A stretch of DNA of 42,174 bases from positions 1 through 42,174 of the forward strand of contig JAJFTL010000058.1 in NCBI GenBank assembly GCA_021373025.1, in the 5' to 3' direction. Of this stretch, positions 29,433 to 35,714 are shown piece by piece. The stretch comes from a bacterium (lineage in GTDB: Bacteria > Caldisericota > Caldisericia > Cryosericales > Cryosericaceae). Within the stretch, counting starts at the first letter, position 1, and each line of letters starts with the position of its first letter. The notes beneath the pieces were generated by a model, which saw only the letters and a list, made by a program, of their open reading frames with translations, ran no database searches and was not told where the DNA came from. A program made the translations under genes and the position numbers.

Positions 29433-30773
29433 ATGAACCTGAAAACGTTCAGGGGCGGCATTCATCCGCCCGAGCGCAAAGAAGCAACCTGTGATCTGCC
29501 GATCGAGCACGTTCCGACGCCTGCATCAGTCGTGATCCACCTGACGCAGGCTGTTGGAGCGCAGAACCAACCACTTGTGAAGATCGGGGACCGCGTTCTG
29601 AAAGGACAGAAGATCGGCGACGTCGATGCCTGTCCAGCTGCTGCCGTCCACGCATCCATCACGGGCATCGTCAAGAAGATCGAGCCCGCCCCCCAGAGCA
29701 ACCTGCGTGACGGCATGGCTATCTTCATCGAGGCGGATGGCACGGATGAAACGGCGTATATGCCACCCCTTGATCCGTTCGCCTGTTCACGCGAAGAAGC
29801 TATCAAGCGCCTGCGTGACGCAGGGATCGTCGGCATGGGCGGAGCGTCCTTCCCCACCGACGTCAAGCTGGCACCTCCTGCAGACAAGCCCGTGGATACG
29901 ATCATCGCAAACGGTGCTGAGTGCGAGCCATATCTGACCATTGATTATCGGACTATGCTCGAAACGCCTGCGGTGGTTGTTGAGGGACTTGCAATGGCAG
30001 CACACATCTTGGGCGCAGACAAGGCAATCATTGCCATCGAATCCAACAAGGCAGATGCATTGCCAGGGATTCAGCGGGAGATCCCGGCCCACGCACACGG
30101 TGTCCCAATGGAAGCTGTCCTCGTCGCCACCAAGTATCCGCAGGGTGGAGAGAAGATGCTGATCAAGGCCATCACCAACCGTGAGGTACCTTCCCACGGA
30201 CTGCCCTTCGACGTCGGCGTGATTGTCCAGAACGTCGGAACGCTCGTTGCCATCAGTGAGGCCTTCATCCAGGGCAAGCCGCTTATTGAGCGCGGCTTCA
30301 CTGTCTCGGGCGAAGCGTGCAGGACCCCCAAGAATCTCTATGCTCCTATCGGTACGGTCATTGGCAGCCTCATCCCGGATGTCATCCAGGTCAGTGATGA
30401 TCTGCGCAAAGTCATCTTCGGTGGCCCTATGATGGGCGTTGCCGTGCCGACTCTGCAGACGCCAATCGCCAAGGGAACAAGCGGAGTGCTGTTTTTCAAC
30501 ACAGCCGAAGCTACACAGTATGAGGAACGGCAGTGCATCCGCTGCGGCCGCTGTGCTGACGCCTGCCCTGTTCGGCTCATGCCTATGCTGATGAACGCCG
30601 CCATCGCCATCAAGGATCTCGATCGCGCCGATGCTCTCGGCCTGATCGACTGCTTCGAATGCGGAGCCTGCAGTTACAGTTGTCCAGCCCGCATTCCACT
30701 CACGCAGCGGTTTAGGCTTGGCAAAGACCTTCTGCGTAACCAACGTGCTAAGGAGGCCCGCCATGGAAAATAA
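29433..30773 (+). CDS. rnfC: Rnf complex subunit C
   Basis: The 446-residue peripheral subunit of the sodium- or proton-pumping ferredoxin:NAD+ oxidoreductase, which carries the FMN/NADH site and two [4Fe-4S] clusters. The opening FRGGIHPPERK is diagnostic. The flavin/NADH-binding stretch GIVGMGGASFPTDVKL and NGAECEPYLT is intact, and the clusters are CIRCGRCADACP and CFECGACSYSCP near the C-terminus. GAAAGGAGA lies upstream of the ATG. It overlaps rnfD by 11 nt and opens the order rnfCDGEAB, as in clostridia. Confidence 0.96.
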   Translation: MNLKTFRGGIHPPERKEATCDLPIEHVPTPASVVIHLTQAVGAQNQPLVKIGDRVLKGQKIGDVDACPAAAVHASITGIVKKIEPAPQSNLRDGMAIFIEADGTDETAYMPPLDPFACSREEAIKRLRDAGIVGMGGASFPTDVKLAPPADKPVDTIIANGAECEPYLTIDYRTMLETPAVVVEGLAMAAHILGADKAIIAIESNKADALPGIQREIPAHAHGVPMEAVLVATKYPQGGEKMLIKAITNREVPSHGLPFDVGVIVQNVGTLVAISEAFIQGKPLIERGFTVSGEACRTPKNLYAPIGTVIGSLIPDVIQVSDDLRKVIFGGPMMGVAVPTLQTPIAKGTSGVLFFNTAEATQYEERQCIRCGRCADACPVRLMPMLMNAAIAIKDLDRADALGLIDCFECGACSYSCPARIPLTQRFRLGKDLLRNQRAKEARHGK

Positions 30774-31752
30774 GCCCAGACTCGTCTTGTCGGCAGCACC
30801 ACATATTTTTACACGCTGTGACATCCAGAAAACGATGGGCATGGTCATCATTGCCCTGCTGCCCGCTCTTGCGGGAGGCGTCTACTTCTTTGGGCCCAGA
30901 GTCCTGGCGGTCGCAGCAGTGTCCATCGTCACGGCAGTGGCGTCCGAGTTCGTGTTCCGGAAAGCACTCCGGCGCGAAACACACATCAAGGATCTGTCCG
31001 CGGTCGTCACGGGGCTCCTGCTGACTCTCATCCTGCCTCCCTCGTCGCCCCTGTGGATGGCAGCCGTTGGAGCGGCGTGCGCCATCATTGTGGCCAAGGA
31101 GCTATTTGGCGGACTGGGCGGCAACTTCGCCAACCCGGCTCTCGTAGGACGTGGCATTCTGCTCATGAGCTGGCCGGCATTTATGACGCGCTGGTCGCCT
31201 CTGGTGAATGCGGCAACCGTTGACGCAACGACGACTGCGACACCCTTGGGCATCCTCAAGCTCGGGGGCGCCCTCGCTGATGTCATGAAAAGCCTCGGGG
31301 TCAGTGGTAAGCCGGCTCTGTACCTGCAGATGTTTCTTGGCAACCGTTCAGGAAGCATTGGTGAAACCTCGGCCCTCCTGCTACTGGTGGGCGCGGCATT
31401 CTTGGTCATCACCCATGTCATTGACCTGCGCACGCCCGTTGCCTTCATCGCAACAACCTTTGTCACGTCATGGCTCTTCGGCCGCGACCCTCTCTTTTCC
31501 GTACTGGCTGGAGGTATCCTCCTAGGGGCCTTTTTCATGGCCACTGACTACGTCACAACACCAGTGACACCAGCGGGGAAATGGATCTTTGGCATGGGCG
31601 CCGGGCTCATCACCGTCTTAATCCGCCAGCTTGGCAACTTCCCAGAGGGTGTCACCTATGGCATCCTGTTCATGAACGTGGTCACACCGTATCTCGATAT
31701 GATCGTTCCACACAAGTTCGGCTATGTGAAACCCAGGAAGGTGAGAGCATGA
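30763..31752 (+). CDS. rnfD: Rnf complex subunit D
   Basis: A 329-residue integral membrane subunit with about nine or ten hydrophobic helices. The covalent FMN attachment region reads DATTTATPLG, where the usual form is D.(S)GATPL; the acceptor is predicted to be Thr160. The ATG at 30763 has AAGGAGG upstream and lies within the rnfC end, and the longer frame from 30718 is not needed. It overlaps rnfG by ATGA. The flavin transferase ApbE that would modify RnfD and RnfG is not in this window. Confidence 0.95.
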   Translation: MENKPRLVLSAAPHIFTRCDIQKTMGMVIIALLPALAGGVYFFGPRVLAVAAVSIVTAVASEFVFRKALRRETHIKDLSAVVTGLLLTLILPPSSPLWMAAVGAACAIIVAKELFGGLGGNFANPALVGRGILLMSWPAFMTRWSPLVNAATVDATTTATPLGILKLGGALADVMKSLGVSGKPALYLQMFLGNRSGSIGETSALLLLVGAAFLVITHVIDLRTPVAFIATTFVTSWLFGRDPLFSVLAGGILLGAFFMATDYVTTPVTPAGKWIFGMGAGLITVLIRQLGNFPEGVTYGILFMNVVTPYLDMIVPHKFGYVKPRKVRA

Positions 31753-32771
31753 AAACGTGGCAGATGATCAAGCTGGGGCTTATCCTGGCCATCTACACCA
31801 CTGTCGGCTGTGTCGGACTTGCCTTTGTCTACAACAGCACCAGTAAGACGATCGCTGCGCGCCAGGCGGCAGATCTGCAGAGTGCACTGCGAGATGTCTT
31901 CCCGAGCGCGACCAGGTTCACCCCGACAGACAAGGTCGTGTCGTCCAGCAGTGCCGTAGTTTTCCAGTCAGCCTACATGGCAGAGGGTTCTTCGGGGCCG
32001 CTGGGTATTGCCGTGCAGGTTCAGGGCTCCAGCTATGGCGGTGCCACGGTTCTTCTCGTCGGAGTTTCAACAGATGGCACCATCACAGGCGTCAAGGTCA
32101 TAGAAAACAAGGATACGCCCGGCCTTGGGGCCAATGCGGCAAATCCTTCGTATTATGTCGACAGGGCAACGAAGACAACCTTCCCAGGGCAATTCACCGG
32201 GAAGAAGGTCACCGATCCCTTTATCGTCAAGGAAGACGTCATCCCTATCACGAGCGCTACCATTACGAGCCGTGCCATTACCAACCTGGTACGGATTGTC
32301 GGCAAGGCTGCCTCTGACGCACTTGGCATTGGGACGACGGCACAGGGACCCAAAGCAGTCCTCCCCGAAGCTGACGCTGTTCGAGCGTCCGCCAAGGCTG
32401 TAAGCTCCAGCGCACCCGGCGTTACCATCCTGGAAACCTCAATCGGAACCAAAGCCGGAGCGATCATCGGTGCTGCCGCAACAGCAAAGGCAAAAGGCTA
32501 CGATGGCGAGATCACCGTTCTGGTGGGTGTTTCGACCGATGGCACCATCACGGGCGTTCAGGTGCTGGAATGCACAGACAGTCTGGGCGGCTCGATCCTC
32601 GCACCCACATTCGCTCAGCAGTTCACGGGCAAGAAGGCGGGCATGTCTCTTGAAGTCGGCACAAACGTAGACGCAGTCTCCGGAGCTACATTCAGCAGCA
32701 AGGGGGCCACAGCGCTTGTGAAAGCGACAGCCGACGCTCTCTTCAAGGCACTGTCAGGAGGTGGTCTGTGA
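31749..32771 (+). CDS. rnfG: Rnf complex subunit G with two FMN-binding domains
   Basis: A 340-residue protein with an N-terminal transmembrane helix (about 8-28). RnfG is normally near 200 residues with one FMN-binding domain; here there are two. Domain 1 (about 95-185) has VLLVGVSTDGTITGVKVIE and the attachment site TSATITS with acceptor Thr171. Domain 2 (about 250-335) repeats VLVGVSTDGTITGVQVLE and ends in the canonical SGATFSS with acceptor Thr314. Both also share QFTGKK, and a linker rich in Ala, Ser and Thr joins them. The ATG at 31749 overlaps the rnfD stop; the frame is open upstream to 31581, but that extension lies inside rnfD. Confidence 0.94.
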   Translation: MKTWQMIKLGLILAIYTTVGCVGLAFVYNSTSKTIAARQAADLQSALRDVFPSATRFTPTDKVVSSSSAVVFQSAYMAEGSSGPLGIAVQVQGSSYGGATVLLVGVSTDGTITGVKVIENKDTPGLGANAANPSYYVDRATKTTFPGQFTGKKVTDPFIVKEDVIPITSATITSRAITNLVRIVGKAASDALGIGTTAQGPKAVLPEADAVRASAKAVSSSAPGVTILETSIGTKAGAIIGAAATAKAKGYDGEITVLVGVSTDGTITGVQVLECTDSLGGSILAPTFAQQFTGKKAGMSLEVGTNVDAVSGATFSSKGATALVKATADALFKALSGGGL

Positions 32772-33436
32772 AACGTCTCTTTACTATCTTTCTCAACGGA
32801 CTGATCGTTGAAAATCCGCTGTTTATTATCATGATCGGCCTTTGTTCAGCCTTGGCTGTCACGACGACCGTGGCAAATGGCATCGGCATGGGCGTGGCCC
32901 TCACCTTCGTCCTTGTCATGTCTGAAGTGATCATCGCTCTGTTCAGGAAGCTGATTCCCAACAGCATCCGTATGCCTATCTTCCTCGTCGTTATTGCTTC
33001 ATTCACAACGATCATGGACCTCGAGATGAAGGCCTACTTCCCCGCTCTCTCCAAGTCAATGGGCGTGTTCATCCCGCTTGTCGTCGTCAACTGCATTGTC
33101 ATGGGACGTGTCGAGGCGTACGCCTCCAAGCAGCCAGTGCTTAATGCCCTGTTTGATGGCCTTGGCATGGGCATCGGCTATACATGGGTACTCATCGCGC
33201 TGTCCGTCGTCCGCGAACTGCTGGGAAATGGCACTCTGCTTGGTATACAGGTGATGCCATCTTCTTTCTCGCCCATGATCTTCTTCATCCTGCCACCCGG
33301 TGGCTTCCTGGTCTTCTCGTTCTGGATGGCTCTCAGCAATCAACTCCGCAAGAAAATCCTGGCCGGCAGAAAACCTGAACCAACAGAAGATAGTTGTTGC
33401 ACACTGCCTGACATTGGCTCAGCCGAAAAGGCATAG
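32768..33436 (+). CDS. rnfE: Rnf complex subunit E
   Basis: A 222-residue membrane subunit with six predicted helices, homologous to RnfA and NqrD. NPLFIIMIGLCSALAVTTTVANGIGMG and NCIVMGRVEAYASKQP are family blocks; the two conserved cysteines (in GLCSAL and VNCIVMG) are placed to hold the iron centre shared with RnfA in the membrane. It starts with GTG, overlapping the rnfG stop as GTGA, with GGAGGTG upstream. A short cysteine-containing cytoplasmic tail (DSCCTLPD) follows the last helix. Confidence 0.94.
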   Translation: MKRLFTIFLNGLIVENPLFIIMIGLCSALAVTTTVANGIGMGVALTFVLVMSEVIIALFRKLIPNSIRMPIFLVVIASFTTIMDLEMKAYFPALSKSMGVFIPLVVVNCIVMGRVEAYASKQPVLNALFDGLGMGIGYTWVLIALSVVRELLGNGTLLGIQVMPSSFSPMIFFILPPGGFLVFSFWMALSNQLRKKILAGRKPEPTEDSCCTLPDIGSAEKA

Positions 33437-33444
33437 GAGGAGAC

Positions 33445-34023
33445 ATGAGTGACCTGATCAAAATCTTCATTGCCGCGTTTCTTGTCAACAACGTCATTCT
33501 CATGCGCTTCATTGGCCTCTGCTCGTACATCGGCATGACATCGGACATCGGACAGTCAGTCGGCATGGGGTTGGCCGTAACCTTCGTAACCGTCATGGCC
33601 TCGGCTGTCACGTGGCCCATCTACTACTGGATTCTCAAGCCCAACGGCCTTGAATTCCTGGAGATCCTGGTCTTCATCGTCGTCATCGCTGCGCTGGTTC
33701 AGCTCGTGGAGTTCTACCTCAAGAAGAGCGTTCCTACGCTCTACCATGCCATGGGCATCTATCTGCCCCTGATCACGACCAACTGTGCGATCCTGGCCGT
33801 AACATTTGACCAGATCACCTACAATTACAACTTTGTACAATCCGTGGTCTTTGCCCTGGCTGTCTCGCTGGGCTACCTCCTTGCCATGCTGCTGCTGGCT
33901 GGTGTGCGCCGGCGGCTCCGCAATTCCCCGATTCCGTCCTTCATGATGGACACGCCTATTCTTTTCCTCACGACGAGCGTCATCGCAGTGGCATTCATGG
34001 GCTTCGCCGGCCTGGTCAAGTGA
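33445..34023 (+). CDS. rnfA: Rnf complex subunit A
   Basis: A 192-residue membrane subunit with six helices, the counterpart of RnfE. NNVILMRFIGLCSYIGMT and LPLITTNCAILAV carry the paired conserved cysteines for the intramembrane iron-sulfur centre. AGGAGGAGAC sits before the ATG, 8 nt after the rnfE stop. It is followed 7 nt later by rnfB, as expected for the rnfCDGEAB order. Confidence 0.95.
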   Translation: MSDLIKIFIAAFLVNNVILMRFIGLCSYIGMTSDIGQSVGMGLAVTFVTVMASAVTWPIYYWILKPNGLEFLEILVFIVVIAALVQLVEFYLKKSVPTLYHAMGIYLPLITTNCAILAVTFDQITYNYNFVQSVVFALAVSLGYLLAMLLLAGVRRRLRNSPIPSFMMDTPILFLTTSVIAVAFMGFAGLVK

Positions 34024-34030
34024 GGGCCAG

Positions 34031-34846
34031 ATGAAGATCATTCTTGAAACAACGATTCTTTCCGCTGTTCTGGGCCTTCTGATCGGCATCGCACTGGGCT
34101 TCTTCCGCGAAAGGTTTGCAGTCCCCAGTGACCCAATGGTGGATCAGGTCCGGGCGATCCTTCCCGGCGCCAACTGCGGAGCGTGTGGGTACGCGGGCTG
34201 TGATGCCTACGCTCTCGCCGTCGCACACCGAACGGCTCCACCAGACCGCTGTACGACGGGCGGCAAGAAAGCTGGAGACCAGATTGCTGCGCTGCTTGGC
34301 CTTACATCCAGTGCAGTCGACCAGCTGGCGGTCCTCGTGTGCCAGGGCTCCCGAGAGAAGGCTCCCCTGAAAGGTGACTACGTTGGTATCGATTCGTGCC
34401 GTGAGGCCAAGATCGTCACTGGCGGGACAAAGCTGTGCCAGTGGGCATGCCTCGGACTGGGAGACTGCACTCGCGTCTGTCCGTTCGATGCGATTCACGT
34501 CGAGGACGATGGTCTTCCCCATGTAGATAACGGCAAGTGCACCGGATGTGGAAAGTGCGTGGAAGAGTGCCCCCAGAACGTTCTTGTACTGGTCCCGCGC
34601 GCCAAAATGGGTGCCATACCTCTCTGCTTAAATCGCAATCCCGTGAAGTCCAAAGTCATTTCTACTTGCAAGACGGGCTGTATCAAGTGCGAGATCTGCG
34701 TCAAAGCCTGCCCCGAGGGAGCCATTCGTATGGAACGCGGACTTCCGGTCGTGGACGAGAAACTGTGCACATCCTGCGGCATTTGTGTCCAGAAGTGCCC
34801 AACCCATGTGTTCAAGCTCATCGAGAAGGACATAATCATCGCTTGA
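34031..34846 (+). CDS. rnfB: Rnf complex subunit B, iron-sulfur protein
   Basis: The 271-residue subunit that receives electrons from reduced ferredoxin. A membrane helix at residues 5-24 is followed by the four-cysteine domain NCGACGYAGC...C. Two double-cluster ferredoxin modules come next: CQWACLGLGDCTRVCP with CTGCGKCVEECP, then CIKCEICVKACP with CTSCGICVQKCP. Together these can hold five or more [4Fe-4S] clusters. It is the last gene of the rnf operon and is followed by a GC-rich hairpin. Confidence 0.96.
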   Translation: MKIILETTILSAVLGLLIGIALGFFRERFAVPSDPMVDQVRAILPGANCGACGYAGCDAYALAVAHRTAPPDRCTTGGKKAGDQIAALLGLTSSAVDQLAVLVCQGSREKAPLKGDYVGIDSCREAKIVTGGTKLCQWACLGLGDCTRVCPFDAIHVEDDGLPHVDNGKCTGCGKCVEECPQNVLVLVPRAKMGAIPLCLNRNPVKSKVISTCKTGCIKCEICVKACPEGAIRMERGLPVVDEKLCTSCGICVQKCPTHVFKLIEKDIIIA

Positions 34847-34925: not shown

Positions 34926-35714
34926 TTACCGAGCCGGAGCGACCGACACTTCCTGACCGTTGTGAACACCACACAGCCGGCAGGCAGGCACCGACATGAC
35001 GACGCTCCTGCCCAGTCCCTGCTTCGCGAGTGCTGCAAACACATGGCCCTCGATCGTCACTCTGCCAGAGAAAACGCCCGATTCACGCCACCGGGCAACG
35101 ATCTCCGAGTCAAGCTCAACGGCCTCCTCCTCGCGGGTATAGCCCTTCACAACGACTAGCCGTTCTGCCGCGGTGGTTTCCACCATCTCACCCGTTCGCC
35201 GGACCAATCCCTGGACCAGCAATGGCGCAAGAGCCTTTTTGAGCGCAAAGAGGTCACGCCCTTCACTCAGATGGCGCAAGGTACGCCGCCCTGGAATCTG
35301 CGCCAGGAGCAGCCATTGCAACGGTGTAAGCGAAAGTGGTTCCTCAAACGACACCGAAGCGGTCAGCTTCTCGTCAAGGTCCGGGAGTACAGGAGCGATG
35401 GTGTCGGTCTCTGCTTTTTCCTGCACTGCCAGTTCAGCAAACTGCTTTGCATCCACACGCATGTCTGGCGCAGCAGCCTTCTCTCCCTCACGAAATTCGA
35501 ACTGCCCCGAGGAAAAGGTTGCCAGCGTGCTGACAAGCCCATCGGTGCCATGCGACAGGCCATGCATTGCCTCGACAATGACTCCCTGGTCGAAGAAGAT
35601 CGAACTCTCAGCCGCGTCCTGTTTCAGCACGAGATGACCGGTCTTTGCCTCACTCATGATGAAAAGGATCACTTCACCCACACTGAATCCTGCCAGATCA
35701 CCAGCCAAGGGCAT
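34926..35714 (-). CDS. DUF4388 (PATAN-like) domain protein
   Basis: A 262-residue soluble protein. Residues 1-90 (LAGDLAGFSVGEVILFIMSEAKTGHLVL, FFDQGVIVEAMHG, FEFREGE) match the DUF4388 domain, found in bacterial signalling proteins that often sit with GTPases and response regulators. The central part (about 125-185) looks like a winged helix, and the C-terminus (205-262) is uncharacterised and has two cysteines (ACRLCG). GGCGGAGG precedes the ATG. It is transcribed divergently from the large membrane-anchored protein, so the two may share regulation. Confidence 0.75.
   Translation of the reverse strand: MPLAGDLAGFSVGEVILFIMSEAKTGHLVLKQDAAESSIFFDQGVIVEAMHGLSHGTDGLVSTLATFSSGQFEFREGEKAAAPDMRVDAKQFAELAVQEKAETDTIAPVLPDLDEKLTASVSFEEPLSLTPLQWLLLAQIPGRRTLRHLSEGRDLFALKKALAPLLVQGLVRRTGEMVETTAAERLVVVKGYTREEEAVELDSEIVARWRESGVFSGRVTIEGHVFAALAKQGLGRSVVMSVPACRLCGVHNGQEVSVAPAR

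Follow-up and report, generated by a model that had tools for sequence, protein, structure and literature searches.

Rnf clusters that encode multi-flavinylated RnfG proteins have been reported, and a second (bifurcated) exit for electrons has been proposed for them (Méheust et al. 2021, PMC8238504). The RnfGs of Clostridium tetanomorphum (7zc6) and Acetobacterium woodii (9eri) consist of a membrane helix and a single FMN-binding domain, in 189 and 207 residues, respectively. The flavin pocket of NqrC is made up of two elements that are highly conserved in NqrC and RnfG, namely an ETPGLG loop and the attachment segment (PMC4348036). Tandem FMN_bind domains filled by ApbE are found in SaFMN3 and CbFMN4, which harbor three and four generic domains and are not described as Rnf subunits (PMC10339131). 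In the same study, mass spectrometry showed all sites of a three-FMN protein to be filled, and crystal structures of two flavinylated FMN_bind domains other than NqrC and RnfG showed a Ser/Thr hydroxyl bonding N5 of the flavin.

We analyzed a contig of 42,174 nucleotides (JAJFTL010000058.1; the window) from a bacterium of the class Caldisericia. It carries a complete rnf operon in the order rnfC-D-G-E-A-B on a single strand (Table 1), in which the rnfG reading frame lies between rnfD and rnfE and overlaps each of them by 4 bases. The product of this frame is an RnfG, as it matched TIGR01947 (NCBIfam rnfG) with 120.7 bits against a cut-off of 102, in two stretches, and displayed the expected architecture, with an FMN_bind domain after an N-terminal membrane helix. 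The remaining Rnf subunits had been described as standard in the initial annotation, and indeed they fit the standard NCBIfam Rnf profiles, rnfA falling slightly below its cut-off. Immediately past the operon, a gene for a DUF4388 protein (window positions 34926-35714, minus strand) is convergent to rnfB.

Table 1. The rnf operon and the features of its rnfG product, in window positions
Feature	Residues	Position	Strand	Basis
rnfC		29433..30773	+	TIGR01945, 502 bits, above cut-off
rnfD		30718..31752	+	TIGR01946, 291 bits, above cut-off; true start probably ATG at 30763 (by inspection)
rnfG with two FMN-binding domains	340 aa	31749..32771	+	TIGR01947 above cut-off; PF04205 twice
RnfG N-terminal membrane helix	~6-32	31764..31844	+	predicted hydrophobic helix; aligned with RnfG N terminus
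RnfG domain 1, canonical RnfG soluble domain	~49-192	31893..32324	+	phmmer to 7zc6_G, E=1e-19
Domain 1 flavin-pocket loop KDTPGLG	121-127	32109..32129	+	sequence; role in the pocket as seen in the structure of NqrC (PMC4348036)
Domain 1 attachment motif TSATITS, predicted flavinyl Thr171	168-174	32250..32270	+	
RnfG domain 2, whole RnfG soluble domain without membrane helix	203-340	32355..32768	+	9eri_G sequence, E=2e-11; fold 7zc6_G/9eri_G/4xa7
Domain 2 degenerate pocket loop TDSLGG	276-281	32574..32591	+	
Domain 2 attachment motif SGATFSS, predicted flavinyl Thr314	311-317	32679..32699	+	
rnfE		32768..33436	+	TIGR01948, 229 bits, above cut-off
rnfA		33445..34023	+	TIGR01943, 223.6 bits, slightly below cut-off 229.3
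rnfB		34031..34846	+	TIGR01944, 129 bits, above cut-off

RnfG had been read as two homologous copies in 340 residues, and this was confirmed. Pfam FMN_bind (PF04205) matched twice (whole-protein E=2e-29), the two stretches scoring 58.7 and 56.3 bits against a cut-off of 22. The two halves aligned with 43% identity (E=3e-15), and the Smith-Waterman score between them was 167, while 1000 shuffles gave a mean of 38 and a maximum of 64. Both domains also matched solved RnfG subunits. The repeated unit spans about 140 residues and thus exceeds the 77-residue Pfam core; it corresponds to the full RnfG soluble domain minus the membrane helix. Indeed, residues 203 to 340 include the stretch VLPEAD, which in other RnfGs comes after the membrane helix. 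The alignment to 7zc6_G starts at residue 2. In the structural model of RnfG, a helix covers residues 2 to 50, and the strand order and the C-terminal helix recur in both halves. The full-length model was weak (pLDDT 70, pTM 0.51), too weak for the relative placement of the domains. Domain 2 modeled alone reached a pLDDT of 84 and a pTM of 0.80, with a fold matching RnfG and NqrC, including holo-NqrC (4xa7).

The initial annotation had taken two shared peptides as a sign of homology, and these are present in both halves, GVSTDGTITGV at residues 105 to 115 and 260 to 270 and QFTGKK at residues 148 to 153 and 291 to 296. However, they mostly represent the consensus of the family, the RnfG of C. 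tetanomorphum having VGVSTEGKVTGIKIL, for instance, and in several further species of the genus they are not identical. Stronger evidence for the duplication comes from the roughly 140-residue alignment, VLPEAD included, together with the repeated secondary structure. A recent duplication, which the identical peptides might suggest, was rejected, as the two copies of the longer peptide are encoded with 5 differences in 33 bases and those of the shorter one with 3 in 18, and the peptides have diverged in other species of the genus. A match of residues 245 to 277 to TonB_C was weak and short, lay over a beta-hairpin of domain 2, and was taken as a cross-match.

We then considered the flavin sites. 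Both threonines, T171 and T314, were found where the initial annotation had placed them, each within an ApbE-type attachment motif, namely TSAT in domain 1, a glycine-to-serine variant, and SGAT or TGAT in domain 2. The domain 1 motif TSATITS and the domain 2 motif [ST]GATxSS were invariant in all nine full-length sequences of the genus. In domain 1, the pocket loop KDTPGLG is likewise invariant in the genus, and this domain is very probably flavinylated at T171, judging from its sequence. In domain 2, the canonical motif is kept and the (E/D)TPGLG loop is lost and shortened, varying among species of the genus (TDSLG, TDSQG, TDGLG, SDSQG), while almost every other RnfG domain in our sample has TPGLG. 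The absence of a flavin pocket from one domain, which the initial annotation had named as an objection to its own reading, thus applies only by half. A complete NqrC/RnfG pocket in each domain is a structural expectation, and domain 2 departs from it; the definition of multi-flavinylated RnfG used by Méheust et al. counts domains. The serine at the N5-bonding position is retained in most domain 2 sequences and, given the Ser/Thr bond to N5 described in PMC10339131, we consider flavinylation of domain 2 at T314 to be likely, in an environment that should differ from that of domain 1.

To see how widely this architecture is shared, we compared the RnfGs of related genomes. A full two-domain rnfG was found in 8 other genomes of the genus, with 72 to 77% identity and a nearly constant length of 340 or 345 residues, and a ninth contained the second half only, at a contig end. 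The remaining five genomes of the genus, which are 61 to 87% complete, gave no match. Elsewhere in the class, the families that we sampled have a single-domain RnfG of about 200 residues. The recurrence of the same architecture at nearly the same length in eight genomes, plus the partial copy, leaves an assembly artefact, or two genes mis-called as a fusion, with a negligible chance. In the genus, the linker had a pooled dN/dS of 0.351, and the values of domain 1 (0.106) and domain 2 (0.157) were lower, indicating that both domains are kept by purifying selection.

In a tree of the individual domains, domain 1 clustered with those RnfGs of the class that have a single domain, and domain 2 was placed on a long branch. 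Once three unstable long-branch rows were removed, a single group with a support of 97 united the two domains and the RnfGs of the sister families, which makes it likely that the duplication took place inside Caldisericia. As to the node, the two domains joined each other at 84, and the alternative of domain 1 with the sister families was unrejected (p-AU 0.73). VLPEAD had hinted that domain 2 was acquired horizontally, from an RnfG of clostridial type, which is unsupported given the same grouping at 97.

We also searched the genome for possible partners of RnfG. It encodes one ApbE flavin transferase (G000:C36), adjoining, by inspection, a NusG-II-like reading frame. One further FMN-binding gene was found (G000:C2:30165-30863; L034:1336-2034), encoding 232 residues with two FMN_bind domains, the attachment motifs SQAT and SKAT, and a lipobox-like start, so that the product is a predicted lipoprotein. 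This gene lies away from rnf and, by inspection, adjoins genes for a sugar-type ABC transporter permease and an alpha/beta hydrolase. Most members of the genus carry such extra small FMN_bind genes, which are missing from all sister families sampled; one genus genome (G004, 94% complete) shows no FMN_bind gene other than rnfG. Since all members share ancestry, the extra genes count as one correlated change. A limited search for two families of c-type cytochromes (paired CXXCH and cbb3-type) gave no match.

Based on these data, we propose that ApbE would attach one FMN to T171 and probably a second one to T314. Domain 1, which adjoins the membrane helix, would act as the ordinary relay between the iron-sulfur center of RnfA/E and the flavin of RnfD. 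Domain 2, farther out on the linker, would be an extra redox center, probably swapping electrons with domain 1, and could open a side path by which electrons leave (or enter) Rnf, with the small FMN-binding lipoprotein as one candidate extracytoplasmic partner. As an overall explanation, a multi-flavinylated RnfG with a relay in domain 1 and an outer side-branch flavin in domain 2 is the one that we modestly favor; the side-branch role taken by itself is tentative, with somewhat less than an even chance. Against this explanation stand the lost pocket loop of domain 2, the position of the lipoprotein gene away from rnf, the lack of extra FMN_bind genes in G004, and the negative result for the two cytochrome families. 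A bolder version, in which domain 2, with its altered pocket, is a specialized exit flavin that works with the newly acquired FMN lipoproteins in a cytochrome-free electron export fed by the Rnf ion pump, appears quite improbable.

The deleted TPGLG loop could mean that the flavin of domain 2 is loosely held or absent, in which case this domain would be a structural or docking module on the outer face of the Rnf complex. The variability of the loop across the genus and a dN/dS above that of domain 1 are consistent with such a module, which we nevertheless consider rather unlikely: [ST]GATxSS does not vary within the genus while the rest of domain 2 diverges, and the domains of SaFMN3 and CbFMN4 are flavinylated with a Ser/Thr hydroxyl near N5, a feature kept by most domain 2 sequences. 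Alternatively, the second flavin might merely store or buffer electrons within a normal Rnf cycle, none being passed outside. This would fit the standard appearance of the other subunits and the lack of an outside acceptor or of a cytochrome partner from the two families searched, but the extra FMN-binding proteins, which most genomes of this genus have and the sampled sister families lack, argue against it, and we hold it to be improbable. Finally, domain 1 could have lost its flavin through the glycine-to-serine change, domain 2 having taken over the relay. The motif of domain 1 does deviate from [ST]GAT in all genus members examined; however, residues other than glycine at this position recur in single-domain RnfGs (TAAT in a sister family; SSAT, ASAT, and TNAT in other phyla), and the pocket of domain 1 is intact, better conserved, and next to the membrane helix, making such a takeover very unlikely.

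Should the second flavin of domain 2 work as proposed, Rnf would couple ferredoxin and NAD and would in addition be linked to acceptors outside the membrane, an idea that has already been published as a hypothesis. The lineage offers a clean case for it, with the extra domain in one genus, close relatives that lack it, and a diverged pocket in the second domain. The initial annotation had regarded a double-domain RnfG as exceptional, which was not supported; its own first objection, that such proteins might prove common and already described, applies. Like the RnfGs of Méheust et al. (PMC8238504), for which the same second path was proposed, this one harbors more than one FMN-binding domain within an Rnf operon, and the two-domain RnfG of this genus belongs with the multi-flavinylated RnfGs already described. 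It differs from those in that its RnfG-type domains number exactly two and the pocket loop of the second is degenerate. The new detail, read from the sequences, is that domain 2 keeps its motif and has lost the pocket loop, while domain 1 keeps its pocket and carries the glycine-to-serine motif.

To determine whether similar proteins recur elsewhere, we surveyed 300 genomes of one other bacterial phylum and fetched 20 RnfG hits, chosen for length and nearly all of them long frames. At least two FMN domains or motifs were present in 16 of the 20, a number that, after selection for length, speaks for recurrence and not for frequency. Seven of these 16 adjoin other rnf genes, with 2, 2, 2, 3, 5, 4, and 3 domains or motifs. 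Two surveys of small phyla, with few genomes, yielded no confirmed tandem rnfG. The second domains of the other rnf-linked multi-domain RnfGs retain TPGLG or TQGLG. Three two-domain RnfGs of the sampled phylum (L100, L101, and L108) resemble ours in having tandem RnfG-type domains encoded beside rnfD, rnfE, rnfA, and rnfC, but in these an ETPGLG-like pocket is preserved in the first as well as the second domain. In the domain tree, their domains group with each other, apart from those of the present RnfG, and the duplications therefore look independent.

The survey also yielded other arrangements. L111 and L112 encode rnf-linked RnfGs with five and four FMN-attachment motifs, in which only the first domain is of the full RnfG type. 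L102, L105, L106, and L107 encode RnfG-like proteins with three FMN domains, with no rnfA, B, C, D, or E in the fetched 3.7 to 4.5 kb, and these proteins possibly serve another membrane partner. In two genomes of the sampled phylum, a single uninterrupted frame of about 550 codons covers both RnfD and RnfG (L103, plus strand, from base 932; L116, reverse strand, from its base 1310), which looks like an RnfD-RnfG gene fusion.
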